Part shown: positions 4,503 to 32,242 of the stretch, piece after piece | Layout: each line of letters begins with the position of its first letter | How positions within the stretch are numbered: the stretch's first letter is position 1 | Virus record (IMG/VR): IMGVR_UViG_3300023296_001132 | Span: 1-32,242 of that record | Source of the DNA: a virus | Strand: one strand, 5' to 3' | DNA length: 32,242 nucleotides | Notes under the pieces: generated by a model | The model's input: only the letters and a program-made list of their open reading frames with translations | The model's database searches: none | What the model was told of the DNA's origin: nothing | Program-made: the position numbers and the translations under genes

Positions 4503-4655
4503 ATGCCTACACCTAAGTATAGAATATGAGATGAAGTATATGTCATAAGAAATAATAGGATAGCAAAATGAACTATAGAGAAGATAGAACGAAGTATATG
4601 TGAATTGACAACAACAGGTTCATCACATACAAAATATACTAGAGATATAGAATAA
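4503..4655 (+). CDS. 50-aa hypothetical phage protein
   Basis: The start KYRIGDEVYVIRNNRIAKGT has the SH3/KOW-like pattern common in tiny phage proteins (a short beta-barrel binding segment). Two UGA-Gly codons, one in the conserved IGDEV turn. The leader AACCTTTATATTCTAAT precedes it. The frame continues after TAA 4653 as TISKLIEAVNLLISKG to TAG, so an in-frame stop may have shortened it. Confidence 0.6.
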
Positions 4656-4710
4656 ACAATATCAAAACTCATAGAAGCAGTGAACCTTTTAATATCTAAA
4701 TGATAGGATC

Positions 4711-5049
4711 ATGAATACAACGAAAAGGAAATCTACACTAGCACAACGCTATATGTCAAAATTAGCAAAGCTAACCACTCCGTTTTTCGACATCGTGAAT
4801 TTTGTGCCAATTAGACGAGCTACCCAGAAAAGTGTGGGATTTGTTGGTAAGGTAAAAAAATGGATAATGAAAAAGGAATTTGTTTGATGCGAAGATTATC
4901 CTGAAATATGAATATATAACGCAAGGATGTATAAAATGCCTGTTATTTGAACCGTGGTTGTTGTTGGTATCTGAATTTTGACTTTGTTAATTCTATGATA
5001 TTCTCTTGTATCAATGTGAAAGTTAATCAAAATCTTGGTTTGAATGTAA
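4711..5049 (+). CDS. Membrane protein of unknown function
   Basis: 112 aa. Basic N-terminal half followed by a hydrophobic segment at about 75-100 (PVIGTVVVVGIGILTLLILG) that needs UGA-Gly to be continuous. Leader AACCTTTTAATATCTAAAT lies about 10-30 nt upstream. One transmembrane helix, probably with a cytoplasmic basic N-terminus. No family recognised. Confidence 0.6.
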
Positions 5050-23192: not shown

Positions 23193-25517
23193 ATGAACAG
23201 AAGAGCAATATGAGTATGAAAAAATTGATCTTGACTAACACCTGACCAACAAGCGTCATTAAGACCAAGCCAACAGCGAGCATTCCCAAACATGACTCTC
23301 CTTGATGATTTGAAATCGGTTGGTATATCAGGAGAACAAGTGTTTTTGTCGAAAGGATTGATGACTTATGATTTCCCTACTATCCCACCAATACCACAAT
23401 TAACTATATCAGCTTGATGATATTTGAGATTCTTCACTTTACAGGCTGTCACAAATATAACTACAGGACTACCTGAATATAGTTGGTTAGTATCTGATGA
23501 GTTTGATTCTTGAGTAATAACTCTACCTCTGAATATAGGACAACAGGCAGAAGAATGAGCTATTATTTTGTTTTGATTCTGATTATTGAATGCGACTTGA
23601 TGAACATTGACCAGTTGAATAGATTGAGAAGCTGAATGATTTGTAGGATTTACTCTAAATCTTTGATGAAGTAGTAATGGGGTTAGTGGAAACCCTTTCT
23701 TCTATTTCAATGGTACTGATATAGTTACCAAGAATGATTGTTATGTGTGATTTATTGGATTCCCAGAATGACAAATAGTTGATTTATCAATAATAGAGTG
23801 ATGGGTAATCCCTGATTGAGATAGTAGATGATTTATTATATCAGAATACGATTGAGAGTTATTGGCAGTATCTCCAGTATCACAAACAAAATTAACCATA
23901 TGATTTATTGAATTGATAAACAATACTGGATCTGACTTTGTTGTATGAATCGACCCATTATCATCATTGTCGGCTTGAGACATAACAATAACTACATTAT
24001 CAGAATGAAACTATATATGAAAATGGACAGGCGAACCTGAACTTAATTCCAGTTGATGATATATCCTTGATTGAATGATAGCTAATTTTGCTTGAGATAT
24101 AAATATTCGTACGGATTGAGTGCGAGAACCATTCAATACTTCAACTTCAGCAAGTGCTGACTTTTATGTGTCTGGTTGAATATCAGAGGATTTACCACAA
24201 CAGATATTCAATGATTGGGACACTATGTATAATGCTACACAAGCTGCTGCTTGAGTAAATAAACTTGAAAGAATCCATATCTGACAGAATACTTTAGCAG
24301 TTACAGCAAACACGGCTTGAAGCACATATAATACCACAAACTTTGAGTTATTGAATTACGATATAGTAGAAGATTCCAGTCAAGCTATATTAGATATAGA
24401 AAACACAAACCCAGGCGACCCTATATCATTTAATCTACCAAAGAAGATTGATGGAGTCTTAGTAAAATATACAACAAATCTAGTTCCTTTTTATACCTAT
24501 TCTGTTTGAGAACAAGTGGAAGTAGAGCTATGTAATGCTGCTCAATTAATGACTCTTGATATGTTTCACTCTTATCATTTTACAAACAGTTCTTGACTAA
24601 AGGTTACATTCAGAGATACCAGTAACTATATTTGATACAATTCGCCATTTATACTTCTTGATGATACATCAACTATAGATGTCCATCTTTATGATAACTC
24701 ATTATTACAATCAGGATTTGTCGAATGAAATATAAAAGAGAATATAAGAATACATCTACATTCTCCTAGTGCTTATATAAATGAATCATACTATCAGGAT
24801 GCAACTGTAATAAATTATTGACGAGGTGGTAACTACGACCAAATATCTAGTGTAGCTGAAAACCCGTTAGCTGTAACAAATGTTATTCGATACGATGTAC
24901 CAAAACAAGCATATATAGATTTTGGAACTCCACATTGAATGAATGATTGAGATTATGTATATGTGATTGGAACAACTATGACTTTATGAAGTGCAAATGT
25001 TGATTTGGTGAAAGTGATTGACGCTTCGGCACCAAACTGAGTTACATTACAATACCCTTCAGCTTTTCCAGACCCTTGAACATATACAATTGGAGGTACT
25101 GTTTGATTAAGAAGGGCAGTATCGTACTGATTGATTGATGAAACATTTTGAAATATTTGACAATGATTCAAGTTTGAAATACATTGAGTAACTGCATCAA
25201 ATACAGACAATAAATGAATGTCAATTATATTCTATCAGCCATCAACTTGAAATATAGCAGAAGCATACGATGAGATACTTGTATGAGCTGACGCAGATAA
25301 TAAAGTGTTTGTTACTAATTCTACAACAAGACAACTTAGTTGAAATAATATTGTCAGTTCTTGAATACTGCAAACAAATTGAGGAAGCCCATCAAACGAT
25401 ATGTTTACTTCTTCAAACTGAATTTCTCTATCTGATTGATGGGAGATATTCCTAGTGTTAGACACATTGTCAGCAAGTGATATAATCGTAAACATTTTAT
25501 CTATTCAACCAGCATAA
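23193..25517 (+). CDS. Large tail/fibre structural protein
   Basis: 774 aa, virtually unreadable with the standard code: about 61 of about 83 glycines are UGA by hand count. It begins MNRRAIGVGKNGSGLTPDQQ and continues LLDDLKSVGISGEQVFLSKG. The remainder is Gly/Asn/Thr-rich beta sandwich material with likely carbohydrate-type segments (SSGGYILDGMIANFAGDINI). No catalytic motif seen. By position it is a second fibre, tip or virion surface protein. Ends by overlapping the next ATG (TAATG). Confidence 0.75.
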
Positions 25518-25699
25518 TGAAAACATACACAAAAAATGTAAGATTGAAATCTACACACGATGCCTGTCTGTGTGAAGATTGAAAGTTATGGATATGTTGA
25601 AAAGAGAGCCAACTCCCAATCAATCGACAAAAACAGATCGTGAGAACTCTATGAGGAGAAGAAGTTGTTGCGTATTTTAAGGAAAAACTAGAACAATAA
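25517..25699 (+). CDS. 60-aa hypothetical protein with CxC motif
   Basis: MKTYTKNVRLKSTHDACLCE then DGKLWICGKESQLPINRQKQ. C17, C19 and C27 with two UGA-Gly turns could form a small metal site. Ends ACFKEK-like charged helix (EEVVAYFKEKLEQ). Coupled to the fibre gene by one-base overlap. Function unknown. Confidence 0.55.
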
Positions 25700-25721
25700 T
25701 TTATCTTTTTATTTTGCGACT

Positions 25722-25961
25722 ATGAGTAAATCCGACCTCGAAAGACTATCTGTTTTAGAAACTAGCCAAACATACTTCATGAAAGAACTTGTCGACATAA
25801 AACAGACCTGTCATGATACTAATACTAAATTGGATGGTTTGATAGAAAAGCTAGATGCTAGGTACGCAAACAAACGAGCAGAACTAGCATTAAAGTCTTT
25901 GATTGGTATAGTATTAGGTAGTGTAATGTTGGCAATTTTATCACTTATATTAACTAAATAA
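25722..25961 (+). CDS. XhlA-like membrane/coiled-coil lysis protein
   Basis: 79 aa without any UGA or frame trouble. Coiled coil at residues 3-50 (LERLSVLETSQTYFMKELVD, then TNTKLDGLIEKLDARYANKR) and one C-terminal transmembrane helix (LIGIVLGSVMLAILSLILTK). This is the XhlA/hemolysin-associated layout of proteins that act with a holin. It overlaps the following holin-like gene by one base. Confidence 0.7.
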   Translation: MSKSDLERLSVLETSQTYFMKELVDIKQTCHDTNTKLDGLIEKLDARYANKRAELALKSLIGIVLGSVMLAILSLILTK

Positions 25962-26170
25962 TGGACAAAGTCAAACTAAAATCAGCTTTTGAGCAAATTC
26001 TTATTGTATTTGTATCTAGTTTCCTTACTGTGCTTGTAGATACATTGCCACAGATACAATGAATACTCTGAACACACATCGATCCGATATACTTATGACC
26101 TACATTTATGATCATAGGTATAGTGATAAGAAAGCGAATACAAAGTATAGAGCAGAAACAGGGCAAATAG
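25961..26170 (+). CDS. Holin-like membrane protein
   Basis: 69 aa. Two hydrophobic segments, about 10-28 (FEQILIVFVSSFLTVLVDTL) and 42-57 (PIYLGPTFMIIGIVI), with a basic C-terminal tail RKRIQSIEQKQGK, fitting a class II holin that permeabilises the cytoplasmic membrane. Three UGA-Gly codons in the loop and second helix. Located with the XhlA-like gene and followed by a terminator. Confidence 0.65.
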
Positions 26171-26226
26171 TTTATATAAACTATCCCAATGTGAAACGAA
26201 GCGAAGAAAACATTACATACAATAAT

Positions 26227-26253
26227 AGTAGGAATTTTTTTCCTACTTTTTAT
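26227..26253 (+). terminator. Intrinsic terminator after the lysis genes
   Basis: Perfect stem AGTAGGAA/TTCCTACT with a TTTTT loop and a following T-tract. Ends the long structural and lysis operon. Confidence 0.85.
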
Positions 26254-26272
26254 TTACTTAATTTTAGGTTAG

Positions 26273-26488
26273 ATGGCTAATATGTATATAGGGACTAACG
26301 AACAGGAGATTTGGTTTGGAGATTGAAGCTATGTAATGAGACAGCCAAACACTAGATATTGTATTCAACAAGTAAGTGATGAGATGATGGATGCTTTCTT
26401 GATGTTTGGACAAGATGAAAAGAATAAGCATGTTATATCCAGTATGCTTTACTATTGTTTGGATCAAAAATGACTAAGCAACAACTAG
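26273..26488 (+). CDS. 71-aa hypothetical protein
   Basis: MANMYIGTNEQEIWFGDGSY then VMRQPNTRYCIQQVSDEMMD and a helical end. Two UGA-Gly codons. Overlaps the next gene by 19 nt. No family recognised. It lies directly after a terminator, and I see no promoter of the common type before it. Confidence 0.5.
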
Positions 26489-26748
26489 CGAAGAATATCC
26501 ACACACTAACTATCGCTGAGGGCGAAAAGCTGAATTACTACAAGTTCCAAGAACAATCTATATTGAAAGTATTGAAATGAGATGTTATACTTTGAGTATG
26601 TAAAGAGGAAATGACTGTATGGGCTAGAGTAGAGTTTGAGAAGTTAAAGGAAGACACAAGAGCATACATAGTAGCAGAGATTATAAAACAGAAGAAAGAC
26701 GATAAGACATACATATCTACAAAACCAAAGCATAATGACGATTACTAG
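26470..26748 (+). CDS. 92-aa hypothetical protein
   Basis: MTKQQLAKNIHTLTIAEGEK then VLKGDVILGVCKEEMTVWAR, VEFEKLKEDTRAYIVAEIIK and a Lys-rich tail. Alpha/beta, soluble. Two UGA-Gly codons. Small accessory gene upstream of the phosphoesterase; function unknown. Confidence 0.55.
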
Positions 26749-26769
26749 CTTTTATACCTTATATATAAT

Positions 26770-27897
26770 ATGCCAAGAAAAACACCTGATAATGTAAAAG
26801 AGTTGATTGTTAAGTTAAGGGAAGAATGACTATCTTTTAGAAAAATAGCTGTTATGGTAGAGGAAGAATTAGACTATCCTATAATCCATACTACAGTAAG
26901 AAGCGTATTAGCTGGCAATCCATTGAATGCCTACACAGATCAAGAACAGATGACAGGAGAGAATGTTAGACACTATTGGCATAAAACAAAACTAGAAGAT
27001 GGAAGCAAGGTATCGGTATTTATAAAGAACCCTATAGAGGAGAACAAAATGGAAGCATTACACGAACAAATGGTGGATGATGTAAAAAAATATGCTCCAG
27101 TCTATCCAGTAATCAAAAGGACTATTAGTAAAGATTGACATCTACTTGTTGTTGATCCTGCTGATATACATATAGGTAAGCTAGCAAGTGCTTTTGAAAC
27201 AGGCGAGGATTACAACAGCCAAATAGCAGTCAAAAGAGTGATGGAGTGAGTACAATGATTACTAGATAAATCAGCACCATATAACATAGATAAGATATTG
27301 TTTGTAGGCTGAAACGATATACTACATATAGATAGCCCAAAAAGACAGACAACGAGTGGAACACCACAAGATACAGACGGGATGTGGTACGATAACTATA
27401 TGATAGCAAAAAAACTATATGTAGATGTGTTGGAGAAGCTGATAGCAGTAGCTGATGTTGAGTTTGTTTTCAATCCTAGCAACCACGATTTTATGTCTTG
27501 ATTTATGTTATGCCAAACCATACAGGCACATTTTTCTAACAACAAGAATATAAAGTTTGATTGTGATATGTCGCATAGAAAGTATTACCAGTACGGCAAG
27601 AACATGATAGGAACAACACATTGAGATTGAGCAAAACAGAATGATTTGCCTTTGCTTATGGCGACAGAAGCAGCTATAATGCGAAGTGAGAGCAAACACC
27701 GTTATATATACTGACACCATATCCATCACAAAGTAGCCAAAGATTACATATGAGCGACCTTTGAAAGTTTGAGATCTCCCAGTGGTACTGACAGCCGACA
27801 TCATAGGAACGGTTATACAGGATCTCCTGCTGCTGTGGAGGGTTTCTTACACCATAAAGAACGATGACAAGTCGCAAAGTTTACTCACTTATTTTAA
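26770..27897 (+). CDS. Calcineurin-like metallophosphoesterase with N-terminal HTH
   Basis: 375 aa. N-terminal 1-50 is an HTH-like DNA-binding segment (NVKELIVKLREEGLSFRKIA, VRSVLAGN). The catalytic domain has the ordered metal motifs: DIH (132-134), GGND (180-183, first Gly UGA), PSNHD (236-240), THGDG (283-287) and GHHIHH (315-320). It hydrolyses phosphoesters with two metals; phage relatives are often called phosphoesterases or Mre11-like nucleases of unknown substrate. The HTH suggests action at DNA. Leader GCTTTTATACCTTATATATA precedes the start. Confidence 0.88.
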
Positions 27898-27900
27898 CAT

Positions 27901-28194
27901 ATGACACTCAAAAAAACAAAAAGGACTGTAAATACTATACCAGAGGTAAAACCTTTGTGGCGAGTAAAAGCATCGTTTAGCTATCACAAGGGTTCTAGTT
28001 ATCTTGATCTTGACATGAGCGATAACTTTGAAACACTAGAAGCACCAGCATCATTACTAGCTGAGGGTATCTGAAACATACTAGCAGAGATCAAGAAGTT
28101 AATGCCAAAGACAGAGGAAGCGAAGAAAGAATACAATGATTTGGTTAAAGACATTATCAAAGACATAGAACAATCTTTAGTTCATTATTCATAA
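27901..28194 (+). CDS. 97-aa hypothetical protein
   Basis: MTLKKTKRTVNTIPEVKPLW then VKASFSYHKGSSYLDLDMSD, and a helical C-terminal half (LLAEGIGNILAEIKKLMPK). One UGA-Gly. Tight spacing to the phosphoesterase (3 nt) and the next gene (2 nt), so an operon. No family recognised. Confidence 0.6.
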
Positions 28195-28196
28195 CA

Positions 28197-28400
28197 ATGG
28201 CAAGCAAAAAAACAGCACTAGCAGACTACCAAATGGTAGCAATGGCACGCAATTTATACGAGGAACTAAATAGCTTCTATCCTGATGTAAGGTTAAAAGT
28301 TGAAAATTGATTACCAATCCTTATAAGTGATGATGGACAGTTTATCGGTATGGGTGCTTTGACTGTGTTAGAGAACTATATATTAGATAAGAACTCCTAG
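28197..28400 (+). CDS. 67-aa hypothetical protein
   Basis: MASKKTALADYQMVAMARNL, then YEELNSFYPDVRLKVENGLP and ISDDGQFIGMGALTVLENY. Compact alpha/beta; one UGA-Gly in the ENG turn. Starts 2 nt after the preceding stop. Function unknown. Confidence 0.6.
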
Positions 28401-28412
28401 CTTTATTGGGAT

Positions 28413-28532
28413 ATGGCAATGAAACATGCAGACAAATTCGAGCTTTTGTTTTTGGTCTGTATGGGATTATATATTTTGTATTCAATAATGGAATTTGTTT
28501 TATCAATAAGGATTTACATATGGCACATATAG
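28413..28532 (+). CDS. 39-aa membrane peptide
   Basis: MAMKHADKFELLFLVCMGLY followed by ILYSIMEFVLSIRIYIWHI: a single transmembrane helix. Overlaps the start of the peptidase gene by 13 nt. Very small, so confidence is limited; it could be a membrane partner for the downstream enzyme. Confidence 0.5.
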   Translation: MAMKHADKFELLFLVCMGLYILYSIMEFVLSIRIYIWHI

Positions 28533-29473
28533 AACTACAAAACAACTATGATATAGATAAAATCCAAGAGAGTGATTGGGTACTATCTGGAAACGATGAC
28601 ATTATGAAAGAGATATTGAAACTAGACAAAGCACCTGATTGGGAAGTTGTGTTGAGCCAATATGGCAGACCAGAATGGATCAGCTCTTGTACTAAATTTG
28701 CTGCTATGAATGCTTTGTTTTCTGATATGTGATATTATGCCACTCTTTCAGATATACAAGAGATAGAACAAGCGAGCATAAAGGCAGGTTTCATTGTTGG
28801 GAAATGACGATGGAGAGGTGCTGGTGTTGATGTAGCTCGTAGATGGTGGAACGCTAAGTTTCCTGACAGAGAAGTCGCTTCATTTACTATTACTTTGTTT
28901 AGTGATGAATTCTGGAAGTATTTGGAAACTGGTAGGACTATTATATGTTCTATAAGTGTAAGCTATAAGTATTGGTTGGATATGTTACAAGACTATAAAT
29001 TAGATAGAATGGATTTTACTACTGGATGATGACACGCAACAACATTCCGTTACGATGGAAAGGTTGTGAGGTTGTTGGATAGTGTAACAAGTGGTAGTGT
29101 TAAATCTTGAATACATACAGAGATAACATATACTATGACTATCGAGCAACTAAGAGAAAAAGCAGATAGACTAAAGACATTAAGATATGAGGCACACATT
29201 TTTATTCCTAAAAATATAATTCCTATGATAATGAGTGATGTTCCAGAATGACAATGGTATTCTGATGCTGTAAAGTTTGTAAAAGATAAGAAGATTATGG
29301 TATGAAACGATGATAAGTTCAGACCAACGGATCCAATAACAAGAGCAGAGGTTGCGAAAGTGATGCATAACTTCTATACACAGGTTATCCAATTGAAATC
29401 AGTTGAATATAATGCTGCTTTGATGGCACAGGTATCCACTTTGGTAAAGATGATCAATGATTGAAAGTCTTAG
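28520..29473 (+). CDS. C39-like cysteine peptidase fused to an SLH domain
   Basis: 317 aa. Residues 1-190 look like a papain/C39-fold peptidase: catalytic Cys57 in SSCTKFAAMNALF, His172 in GGGHATTFRY (two of the glycines UGA) and Asp near 187 in RLLDS. Residues 238-287 are one S-layer homology repeat (SDVPEGQWYSDAVKFVKDKK, then FRPTDPITRAEVAKVMHNF). SLH domains tether proteins to cell-wall polymers, so this may be an exported or lysis-released peptidase acting on the envelope, perhaps the endolysin. No signal peptide is seen. Confidence 0.75.
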
Positions 29474-29502
29474 ATTTGGTACTTTATATGTTAATAAATT
29501 AT

Positions 29503-29889
29503 ATGAGTAAAGAATTTTACAGACACATAGAATTTAATTTTGATCCAATTAAGCATGAAAAGAGCTGATATAAAAGCGACAATAAGTTTTGGCATTTAAG
29601 CAAACTTATCCAAGCAGTAAAAGATCAAAAAGTAAAGAAAGAAAAAATATACATAAACAGTATGCATCATCCTAACAGGTGGAAAGGAAATACTATGAAT
29701 ATGGCAGAAAGTATTAAAAGAATAAATAAAGCAAATACAAAAATGCCAGTAATAATAGATTGGGATTGATATTTGATAGACTGATACCATAGGATAGTAA
29801 AATGTATATTAGAGAATAAAACTTGGATATGGGCATATAGGATAGTGCTAGATAATGTAGAATGTGAAGAAGACAAAGACTGAAAATAG
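29503..29889 (+). CDS. ParB/sulfiredoxin-like protein
   Basis: 128 aa (start could be 29488). Residues 81-112, PVIIDWDGYLIDGYHRIVKC then ILENKTWIWAYRI, match the ParB/Srx-like core, in which D-G-HR binds a nucleotide. Both glycines of WDGY and DGYH are UGA, as the fold requires. Members act in partitioning, transcription or as nucleases; this one is too short to include a DNA-binding domain. Followed by a terminator. Confidence 0.72.
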
Positions 29890-29948
29890 ATTTGACTTCA
29901 ATATATAAATAGTTATAGTGTAACTCACTACAGTTTTGTATTAATGTG

Positions 29949-29972
29949 ACTCTCTAGTAATAGGGAGTTTTT
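29949..29972 (+). terminator. Intrinsic terminator of the accessory operon
   Basis: ACTCTC/GGGAGT (one G-U) with an 8-nt loop and TTTTT. It lies 60 nt after the ParB-like gene. Confidence 0.75.
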
Positions 29973-29978
29973 GTATAA

Positions 29979-30005
29979 CAAAAAAACTACCCACGAGGAG
30001 TAGTT
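29979..30005 (-). terminator. Intrinsic terminator for leftward transcripts
   Basis: On the minus strand, AACTAC pairs with GTAGTT around a short loop and is followed by seven T. Expected to end transcription of the minus-strand gene(s) at 30280-30686. Confidence 0.75.
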
Positions 30006-30105
30006 ATATTTCCCACCACCTGCTAGGATTAGTAAGAAAATAGACCTAGATGCTAAAGGGGGTGACGGTACGGCACGATGTGTTATAGTGTAATATATAA
30101 AAGTC

Positions 30106-30133
30106 TTGCATGTAATTTATAAATATATATATT
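30106..30133 (+). promoter_or_regulatory. Promoter TTGCAT-N16-TATATT
   Basis: -35 at 30106-30111, -10 at 30128-30133. Its transcript would run antisense to the minus-strand genes and reach the terminator at 30696-30732. No + strand gene follows directly. Confidence 0.5.
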
Positions 30134-30279
30134 GTTTTATATGTAAATAGATAAATTGCTTTATATTTATATGTAGAAGCTGTATTAGCTATTTAATAAG
30201 TAATTTATTATTTAACTACATGTAATAAATGACGAAAAAACTAGCATTAATAAATGAATGATTTCATAGCGTATCAAAT

Positions 30280-30432
30280 TTAGACAAAAAGATCAGTAAT
30301 TCATAGAAAATCAGCTAATTTCTTTCATTCTGGAGTAGTTATAGCTGCTCATCTATACTCACTATATATTTGTATAAACCTCTCAAATGCTTCTGTTTTG
30401 TTGTATTTTTTTGCTATTGTTATAGTTTCCAT
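30280..30432 (-). CDS. 50-aa putative regulator on the minus strand
   Basis: METITIAKKYNKTEAFERFI then QIYSEYRGAAITTPEGKKLA and DFLGITDLFV. Needs three UGA-Gly codons at natural turns, which supports it as real. Helical and compact, resembling small phage regulators but with no clear family. One of the few leftward genes, placed between opposing terminators and promoters where a lysogeny or early/late switch regulator would sit. Overlaps the upstream minus ORF by 13 nt. Confidence 0.6.
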
Positions 30433-30686
30433 AGAGTAGTGGACTCCCCCGAATATAAAATACCACACAATATATATGTCTTCTGCTTAGCTAATAGACT
30501 GTTTGCTCTATAGTAGTTATATATCTTTCTAACCACAAAGCCCCCATTATATCTATAAGCTAGTTGGCACAAATTTTGTTGAGTATATGTAAATATATCC
30601 TTTTCCTTTTCTATTACAATACAAAGTAGTATAAAATATACATATGTTTTTGTCTTGCAATTAACAAACAGATCAGTATAAAACAT
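30420..30686 (-). CDS. Possible minus-strand gene, start uncertain
   Basis: The C-terminal half looks coding: TYTQQNLCQLAYRYNGGFVV then RKIYNYYRANSLLAKQKTYI. It ends by overlapping the next minus gene (ATGGAAACTATAA). The ATG at 30686 makes the N-terminus read across a likely minus promoter (TTGCAA 30655-30660 with TATTTT 30633-30638), so the true start is probably further in. No UGA is needed. A + strand promoter lies in the same DNA. Confidence 0.38.
   Translation of the reverse strand: MFYTDLFVNCKTKTYVYFILLCIVIEKEKDIFTYTQQNLCQLAYRYNGGFVVRKIYNYYRANSLLAKQKTYILCGILYSGESTTLWKL
30633..30660 (-). promoter_or_regulatory. Possible minus-strand promoter
   Basis: The self-complementary TTGCAA at 30655-30660 can also serve the minus strand: 16 nt away lies TATTTT (30638-30633). 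It would transcribe the small leftward genes. Weaker -10 than the + strand sites. Confidence 0.35.
30655..30682 (+). promoter_or_regulatory. Promoter TTGCAA-N16-TATAAA
   Basis: -35 at 30655-30660, -10 at 30677-30682. The predicted RNA meets a terminator after only about 45 nt. Confidence 0.55.
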
Positions 30687-30693
30687 ATACCAA

Positions 30694-30734
30694 TATTCAC
30701 CGGGGAGCGATCCTGACTGGTGAATTTTTTTTGT
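30694..30734 (+). terminator. Terminator with GNRA-type inner loop
   Basis: ATTCACC/GGTGAAT with an inner GGA-GCGA-TCC mini-hairpin, followed by eight T. It directly follows one promoter and precedes the next. Confidence 0.8.
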
Positions 30735-30745
30735 GAAATAATCTC

Positions 30746-30773
30746 TTGCAATTGGTATAAAAATCCGTATAGT
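30746..30773 (+). promoter_or_regulatory. Promoter TTGCAA-N16-TATAGT
   Basis: -35 at 30746-30751, -10 at 30768-30773, start near 30780. Drives the structured RNA that follows; spacer shares ATCCG with the promoter at 1627. Confidence 0.65.
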
Positions 30774-30779
30774 GGAGGT

Positions 30780-30899
30780 AATAGAAAAGCGACCATATTG
30801 ATACAGTACCAGTGGATGACTGGCTATCCGAGAGGATAAGGTGGAGTATCAATACAATAAGAACTCCTAGAGTTGCTTGGTCGCTCTCTAGGATTTTTT
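30780..30899 (+). ncRNA. Compact structured RNA with three-way junction and terminator
   Basis: Stem ATTGATAC/GTATCAAT (30797-30804 with 30846-30853) encloses two hairpins: CCAGT/ACTGG (30809-30823) and TATCC-GAGA-GGATA (30825-30838). A terminator stem CCTAGAG/CTCTAGG (30866-30872 with 30886-30892) with six T follows. Its loop contains TGGTCGCT (30878-30885), complementary to AGCGACCA at the RNA's own 5' part (30788-30795) and also at 31094-31101, just before the replisome-organizer start. It could be an antisense regulator or an attenuator controlling replication genes. Not a family I recognise. Confidence 0.65.
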
Positions 30900-30915
30900 A
30901 TAAGTATAAAACAAT

Positions 30916-31092
30916 ATGTATAAGATACAAATAACACTAAATAAAAAAAGTAAAACTGTTCTTGTGTCAAAGGATGTTGAGAACATAAGATTCCATTTAA
31001 GAGTACAAGTGCCTAAATTAGAGAAAATAAATATAAAAGATATAGAGAAACAACTGGATATAGAGATAAACAGAGAATTTTTATTATCATAA
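30916..31092 (+). CDS. 58-aa hypothetical protein at the start of the replication operon
   Basis: MYKIQITLNKKSKTVLVSKD then VENIRFHLRVQVPKLEKINI and a short charged end. Small beta/alpha domain with no UGA. Starts 17 nt after the RNA terminator, so its expression depends on read-through or on antitermination by the RNA structure. Function unknown. Confidence 0.6.
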   Translation: MYKIQITLNKKSKTVLVSKDVENIRFHLRVQVPKLEKINIKDIEKQLDIEINREFLLS

Positions 31093-31103
31093 AAGCGACC
31101 ACA

Positions 31104-31892
31104 ATGACACAATGACGAATAAAACTACACAGATCATCACAAGATAATGAGATGTATTTTCTTGAACCATTTACAAAACGACAAGCATGGCAAGATTTGA
31201 TACTAACAACAAACCATAAAGACTGAAAAATAATAGTAAGATGAAATATTATAGATATAAAAAGATGAGAAAATTGATACTCTGAGGACACATTATCTAC
31301 AAGATGGAAGTGGTCGAGAGGTAAGGTAAGAAGATATCTAAACTACCTAGAAACGATACAACAGATAGTACAACACAAAAGCAAGGTCAAGTCTACCATA
31401 ACAATAATAAACTATGAAAAATATCAATGAAACGATACATCAGACAGTACAACAGACGGACATCAGACAGTACAACAGACGGACACTAACAAGAATGATA
31501 AGAAGAAAAAGAATGAAAAGAGTATAATAGATATTCTAAAAAATGATGATTTAATAAACGAACGATGAATAGATATATTACAACTGTTTGTGGACTACCG
31601 ATCAGAAACAGATACAAATTGAAAAGAGAAACGACAAAAGGAAAAGACACGGAATACAAATCTAAGATTGAAAAGATGGCAAACAAATAACAAAACAAAC
31701 TTTGGTAGAAAGATAATAACTGACTATGAGGATATAAACAACTTCCATAGATGAGCGATGAAAGATGATCGAGATGCTATTAAACAATATTTTAGGGATA
31801 AATATAAAGAGGATGAGATCCGAAAGAGAAAGTATCGAGATACTAAAACAAAACGAAAAGAGAATCCTTTATATCTTGAAACCTCAAAATAA
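31104..31892 (+). CDS. Phage replisome organizer (DnaD-like N-terminal domain)
   Basis: 262 aa. Residues 20-108 follow the pattern of phage replication-initiation proteins: FTKRQAWQDLILTTNHKDGK, then IIVRGNIIDIKRGENGYSED, then TLSTRWKWSRGKVRRYLNYL and TITIINYEKYQ, a winged helix that binds the origin. Glycines at KDGK, RGN and KRGE are UGA. A Lys/Thr/Asn-rich linker and a basic helical C-terminus follow, likely the helicase-loading part. It overlaps the DnaB-like gene by one base. The sequence just before its ATG holds an 11-mer (AAAAGCGACCA) shared with the small RNA. Confidence 0.82.
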
Positions 31893-32242
31893 TGGATATA
31901 AACTTTGATATGATAAATAACTATAGCCGATGATTAGATAAAATAGATACAAGGTTTTGACTACCTAGCAATAGAGAACTAATCATATTATTTGGATATA
32001 TGAGTAGTGGTAAAACAGAATATGCTTACTTTGTTTTAAGGAAGAACGCAGAGAAAGGGAACAAGGTAATGTTTATATCACTAGAACTACCTGAATACGA
32101 TATGAAGCTAAGGATTGCAAGAAAGAAAGCATGAGTTAATAAGTTTGATTTCCAGACAAAAAAATATAACCAACATCAAAAACAAATAATGATAGATGAG
32201 TTTAATAAGATAGATAAACAACCAAACTTGTTAATAACCAGT
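31892..32242 (+). CDS. DnaB-type replicative helicase, 3' end missing
   Basis: First 117 codons only, running off the window. Walker A loop GYMSSGKT at 35-42, followed by KGNKVMFISLELPEYDMKLR, the RecA-fold block of DnaB-family helicases (SLEM-like strand). There is no N-terminal DnaB domain, so this is a short, helicase-core-only phage type. UGA encodes Gly at three sites, including SRGLDKIDTRFGLPSNREL. Coupled to the replisome organizer, which would load it. Confidence 0.85.

Follow-up and report, generated by a model that had tools for sequence, protein, structure and literature searches.

A leader RNA with a terminator loop complementary to its own 5' end precedes the replication operon of a code-25 phage and may act as a conditional terminator

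The replication operon of a phage that uses genetic code 25 is headed by a leader RNA in which the loop of a predicted intrinsic terminator is complementary to the RNA's own 5' end, and by analogy with leaders found in other phages this RNA is on balance probably a cis-acting conditional terminator (attenuator) of the operon. The window, i.e., the whole stretch of DNA analysed here, is a viral record of 32,242 bases. The same topology recurs at the replication operon of other phages, and in one family, for which the host phylum is probably Bacteroidota as judged from the promoter type and one Sphingobacterium contig, the equivalent helix covaries.

The phage of the window employs code 25 (TGA = Gly), known from SR1 and Gracilibacteria. 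Reading positions 25000-32242 with table 11 yields short frames only, and reading with table 25 reveals an ordinary phage gene order including methyltransferase, terminase, portal, tape measure, and exonuclease. Code 25 is also in use in the relatives L082 (96% terminase identity) and L083 (80%) and in L191. The operon consists of the leader RNA, an ORF of 58 amino acids, a DnaD-like helicase loader, and a DnaB-like helicase, and a Shine-Dalgarno match is absent at most gene starts of this phage. The elements of the region are the following.

30746-30773, + strand: putative promoter TTGCAA-16 nt-TATAGT, a 9/12 match that is weak alone; putative transcription start at about 30780
30788-30795, + strand: 5' arm of the long-range helix (P1a, seqA-like), AGCGACCA, the 3' end of the 11-mer AAAAGCGACCA
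30796-30854, + strand: predicted three-way junction with stem 30796-30804/30846-30854 and hairpins 30809-30823 and 30825-30838
30862-30874, + strand: alternative, antiterminator-like hairpin AACUC-CUA-GAGUU, which would tie up the terminator's 5' strand
30865-30893, + strand: predicted intrinsic terminator stem TCCTAGAG/CTCTAGGA (arms 30865-30872/30886-30893) with a 13-nt loop
30878-30885, + strand: 3' arm of the long-range helix (P1b, seqB-like), TGGTCGCT, adjoining the terminator 3' strand with no spacer
30894-30899, + strand: T-run (T6) of the terminator, 16 nt 5' of the next ATG
30916-31092, + strand: small ORF of 58 amino acids with a weak match to phrog_13235 (E = 0.0034)
31094-31101, + strand: third copy of AGCGACCA (seqC-like), which could pair with the terminator loop (p about 0.01)
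31104-31892, + strand: gene for the DnaD-like helicase loader/replisome organizer (rep), code 25, matching phrog_2514 (E = 1.2e-24)
31892-32242, + strand: gene for the DnaB-like helicase (DnaB_C, E = 2.1e-8), truncated by the window end

The three-way junction, the GNRA-type loop (GAGA, in hairpin 30825-30838; the loop of hairpin 30809-30823 contains GGATG) and the T-tailed terminator of an RNA of about 120 nt, all of them put forward in a preliminary description of this DNA, were located, and the whole 121-nt RNA is predicted to fold at -37.0 kcal/mol (z = -3.4; equalled by 3 of 200 shuffles). The promoter claimed in the same place is present as TTGCAA-16-TATAGT, but promoter-type matches at 9 of 12 positions are equally frequent in shuffled sequence. 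A simple terminator scan of the window did not detect the terminator at 30865-30893 because its loop comprises 13 nt. The complementarity described there holds as well: the loop TGGTCGCT complements AGCGACCA both at 30788-30795 and at 31094-31101, and AAAAGCGACCA is repeated exactly at 30785-30795 and 31091-31101, with the correction that two bases, and not three, separate the third copy from the rep ATG at 31104. Perfect sites of the AGCGACCA type occur only three times in the 32 kb, namely as the two copies and the complement TGGTCGCT. Pairing of the loop with the 5' arm has a chance probability of about 0.02 by exact-pair score and of 0.043 by duplex energy, pairing with the rep start one of 0.013, and the 11-mer repeat arises in 2 of 400 shuffles. 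Each of these tests alone is moderate, and it is the comparison among sequences that decides for the predicted self-pairing. The observation itself is thus confirmed and the interpretation first attached to it partly supported.

In a nested ensemble, i.e., one that permits no pseudoknots, about 56% of the structures combine the loop/5' arm pairing with the AACUC-CUA-GAGUU hairpin (the share of this hairpin being about 55%) and about 44% form the terminator. The long-range helix is worth -12.8 kcal/mol as a duplex, and in models that allow a pseudoknot it can coexist with the terminator. Given these competing nested folds and their possible coexistence, the sequence could either switch between states or form a capped terminator. 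After initiation near 30780 the 5' arm would leave the polymerase first, followed by the three-way-junction domain and then by the terminator hairpin, the loop of which complements that arm. By pairing, loop and arm would either form a pseudoknot that caps the terminator or, jointly with the AACUC-CUA-GAGUU hairpin, compete with the terminator, and the balance would set how far RNA polymerase reads through into the 58-amino-acid ORF, the helicase loader, and the helicase. No conservation of the AACUC-CUA-GAGUU hairpin was seen in the comparison with other leaders. As the interval from the terminator to the first ORF is too short for a promoter, the genes would be reached by read-through, which makes an attenuator acting in cis the best reading; among the options that had been named for this RNA, it is the one best supported by the position of the terminator and by the bistable nested folding.

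Part of the comparative evidence comes from a family of kissing-loop leaders (R1), which was traced from a word pattern common to some leaders and for which a scan of viral contigs gave at least 120 matches. Among the matches listed, 122 distinct contexts exist, 115 of them with an inner helix P3, and all 115 have the upstream complement. Pattern matches in cellular genomes that have a chance P3 lack the complement except for one real member from Sphingobacterium alimentarium (DSM 22362; L428, which has the RNA at its start); 45 matches of the pattern shifted by one base served as control. Members consist of a TAnnTTTG promoter, a 5' hairpin P0 with an 8-nt arm in its loop, the terminator P2, and an inner hairpin P3 whose loop bears the complement of the arm, with an invariant UGAA/GGAU between P2 and P3. 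Since the arm and its complement are both located in hairpin loops, the contact would be a kissing loop. In 58 non-redundant members, 94.8% of the cells pair, and the covariation amounts to 0.716 compared with 0.198 ± 0.011 in shuffles and 0.06-0.12 when the alignment is slid. The kissing helix (loop to 5' arm) is paired at 98.9% in these members, with double changes in five of its eight pairs, and 25 sequence versions of it occur in the 115 contexts among the matches listed. The helix is partly constrained, three of its eight pairs being essentially fixed, and it is no more variable than the P3 stem; a free specificity code is therefore not favoured. A kink-turn between terminator and inner stem was also considered and dropped, as a symmetric internal loop accounts for the pair counts.

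The TAnnTTTG promoter is found in 103 of 112 members, mostly ending 9-12 nt 5' of the 5' arm, and from the end of the T-run to the first ATG the median distance is 18 nt (10-90%: 11-20). The first genes encode DnaD-like proteins (phrog_2514, as in the window) or members of other families less firmly linked to the initiation of replication, an ORF of about 55-70 amino acids often comes first, and a gene for a helicase-like ATPase follows. No sequence similarity is detectable between the 58-amino-acid ORF of the window and the small ORFs of the family, and no entry in Rfam matches the family. In four members (L240, L254, L267, and L318), ORFs resembling, by eye, NUMOD4/HNH homing endonucleases lie between the RNA and the rep gene.

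The RNA of the window resembles R1 in that its terminator loop complements the RNA 5' end and adjoins the 3' strand of the closing stem, in that its T-run lies within the family distance from the first ORF of a loader-helicase operon, in promoter spacing (14 nt from the end of the -10 element to the 5' arm), and in the order small ORF, DnaD-like loader, helicase. It differs from R1 in that its fold is devoid of a P0 hairpin presenting the arm, of a separate P3 stem, and of the UGAA/GGAU internal loop. With the R1 covariance model it scores 7.6 bits at 30796-30905 with filters off, compared with 73 bits for L068, an outlying true member, and is not a member; the comparison therefore rests on analogy of design. 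The preliminary description had looked to covariation in related phages, and this proved decisive for the R1 family only, the window RNA having no close homologue for its exact site. The two nearest relatives, L082 and L083, are fragments ending short of the leader site. The RNA thus appears to work like R1 and to share its design without demonstrable homology.

A broader set of leaders was assembled from 80 loci with a related helicase loader, L191, and the window, which gave 43 distinct leaders, and in each of these a terminator hairpin was sought with a loop able to pair with the sequence immediately 5' of it. A terminator-like hairpin is present in 27 of the 43 lineages, with pairing in only part of those. 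Loop scores of at least 20 for upstream pairing are reached by 37% of the 27 leaders and by 5% of 582 control hairpins from the same loci; five of the ten high-scoring leaders form one related set (the Bacteroidota family), which leaves about six independent lineages. When all loci were scanned with a strict geometry, 58 matches were returned compared with 48 in shuffled sequence, which means that the motif alone is not distinctive away from replication leaders. In the window, L191, the L013 type, L041, L074, and L059, the 3' strands of the loop helix and of its closing stem are directly contiguous. The L013 type keeps the complement despite changes on both sides (TTAGACCC/GGGTCTAA, TGACTCC/GGAGTCA, TGAACCC/GGGTTCA, and TTCAACCC/GGGTTGAA).

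L191 is a code-25 phage with a helicase 55% identical to that of the window. In its leader, TGAGCAAAAA (9137) pairs with TTTTTGCTCA (9210) and TGGACTTT (9152) with AAAGTCCA (9193), and the terminator, TAATACTT..CAGGAAG / CTTCCTG..AAGTATTA, ends about 10-15 nt 5' of the rep ATG. The loop-to-5' helix of 10 + 8 bp is longer than that of the window, and its duplex energy of -19.1 kcal/mol is matched by 5 of 2000 shuffles. Position and design are the same in both phages, and the sequences are entirely different. The pseudoknot suggested for the window RNA is supported by this common topology and by the covariation of the equivalent helix in R1. Against a general role as attenuator, such a leader is missing in some DnaD-type phages, and a similar RNA occurs in L002 away from rep. 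The latter (4650-4860; 11-bp TGAGTAAGCAG/CTGCTTACTCA, terminator, TTGACA promoter) lies 3' of a DNA methylase-like gene. The rep leader of L002 (1760-1870), which belongs to the closest relative of the loader, resembles a nested three-way junction in which the terminator stem is the closing helix, just 5' of the ATG. In L482 (G357 C11), a genome of the Gracilibacteria-containing class, about 230 nt at about 1740-1990 on the minus strand, 5' of a DnaD-like gene, are apparently structured and non-coding, and they differ from the window RNA.

Searches for homologues of the window RNA itself gave no match among 80 rep loci (nhmmer and blastn), among viral contigs (DNA pattern), among the terminase relatives L082-L095, in a scan of 353 genomes of the class around a Gracilibacteria genome, or by blastn among 50,697 phage records. 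Rfam returned nothing at gathering thresholds and nothing meaningful at permissive ones, the protein encoded at 28406-29470 retrieved no relatives when used as bait, and no description of such an RNA was found in the open-licence literature. Known RNAs offer partial parallels. The preQ1-I and fluoride pseudoknot riboswitches are leaders with long-range pairing and a terminator close to the start codon; the window RNA is unlike them in having no Rfam match and phage replication genes downstream. The c4 antisense RNA of P1/P7 is likewise small and phage-encoded, and it has stretches that complement other parts of the same RNA as well as a target further downstream, close to a start codon. The window RNA shares such self- and target-complementary segments with it (RF01695), but the target in P1/P7 is an antirepressor operon and in the window would be the replication loader; the Rfam model RF01695 does not match the window RNA. 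For P4 CI, an RNA matured by processing, termination depends on Rho. In P4, CI carries a complement situated between seqA and seqC copies in the leader of the replication genes and brings about premature termination (PMC4825925). The window has the same copy-complement-copy arrangement in a replication leader (30788-30795, 30878-30885, and 31094-31101), but here an intrinsic terminator carries the complement in its loop, the layout also contains a three-way junction, and blastn shows no similarity to phage records.

This layout is the main argument for a system like that of P4, in which a short terminated RNA would act in trans, its loop (seqB) pairing with seqA and seqC of nascent leaders and shutting off the replication genes, with copy control or superinfection immunity as the outcome. 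Two members of the R1 family (L186 and L318) also carry CTTCGAC 2 and 4 nt 5' of the first ATG, where swap controls expect none that long. Most family members have no third copy, however, and among the other lineages no convincing one was found, perhaps except for L043 (ACCGCCTGAA at -67, p = 0.007). The partly constrained family helix, too, does not look like the specificity code of a trans-acting RNA, and we regard control in trans as unlikely. A target-like copy just 5' of a start codon is thus a rare feature that nevertheless recurs. Such a copy could also serve translational control: a terminator loop, located on the rep transcript itself or on a different one, would bind 31094-31101 and block the ribosome at the rep ATG. 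The duplex is predicted at -14.2 kcal/mol, rep is the second-best partner of the loop among the 46 gene starts compared, and in a phage whose genes mostly lack Shine-Dalgarno sites the ribosome may recognise the -10 region, so that pairing there could block translation. The antisense control at the rep start that the preliminary description had envisaged thus has its site in the right place and as a moderate outlier (p = 0.013), but start 1679 pairs slightly better, the intramolecular site is closer, and most relatives lack the copy; we consider this reading quite unlikely.

Two further readings were considered. The promoter-like site, the terminator, and the compact fold would suit a stand-alone small RNA whose ends are locked by the pseudoknot for stability, as would the similar RNA of L002, and its site before rep would then be incidental; the family T-runs, however, lie about 11-20 nt from the first ORF, too close to accommodate another promoter, as is expected of a leader, and a stand-alone RNA is very unlikely. 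Direct repeats beside an initiator gene are common in origins, and the region upstream is non-coding and AT-rich, as would suit a DNA-level element in which the AAAAGCGACCA copies are putative iterons or operators for a replication initiator or repressor. The direct copies number just two, however, at a distance of 306 nt, with a further, inverted copy in the terminator loop, and what relatives keep is complementarity within an RNA fold and not a word, which renders this last reading highly improbable. An attenuator acting in cis remains the preferred explanation.

More widely, we tentatively suggest, as an idea that falls a little short of probable, that a so far undescribed class of kissing-loop- or pseudoknot-capped conditional terminators, made up of several unrelated sequence families, heads replication operons in phages of widely different hosts, recoded candidate-phyla bacteria included, and lets the phage sense a signal, or its own leader RNA, ahead of DNA replication. 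If so, a folded RNA at the operon's 5' end would gate the phage helicase loader and helicase in many phages, and RNA-based replication control, known from P4 and plasmids, would extend to a large set of ordinary phages; the window would add a recoded phage to those with this design. The Bacteroidota family, absent from Rfam, offers a testable fold with more than 100 natural compensatory variants.

Some features of the neighbourhood may be added. Between 29890 and 30690, about 800 bases are without any + strand ORF of 60 amino acids (code 25), are AT-rich and contain many short repeats, and this stretch is possibly an origin region. Just 5' of the RNA promoter lies a second intrinsic terminator (30695-30732, + strand; ATTCACC/GGTGAAT, 17-nt loop, T8), so that the two terminators are in tandem. 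It was considered as a second unit of the same kind and rejected, as the scan for upstream pairing finds nothing significant for its loop, although the family model reaches a weak 14 bits at this site. Finally, the rep start falls within a tandem ACAATGAC repeat (31102-31115), which provides two ATGs eight bases apart.
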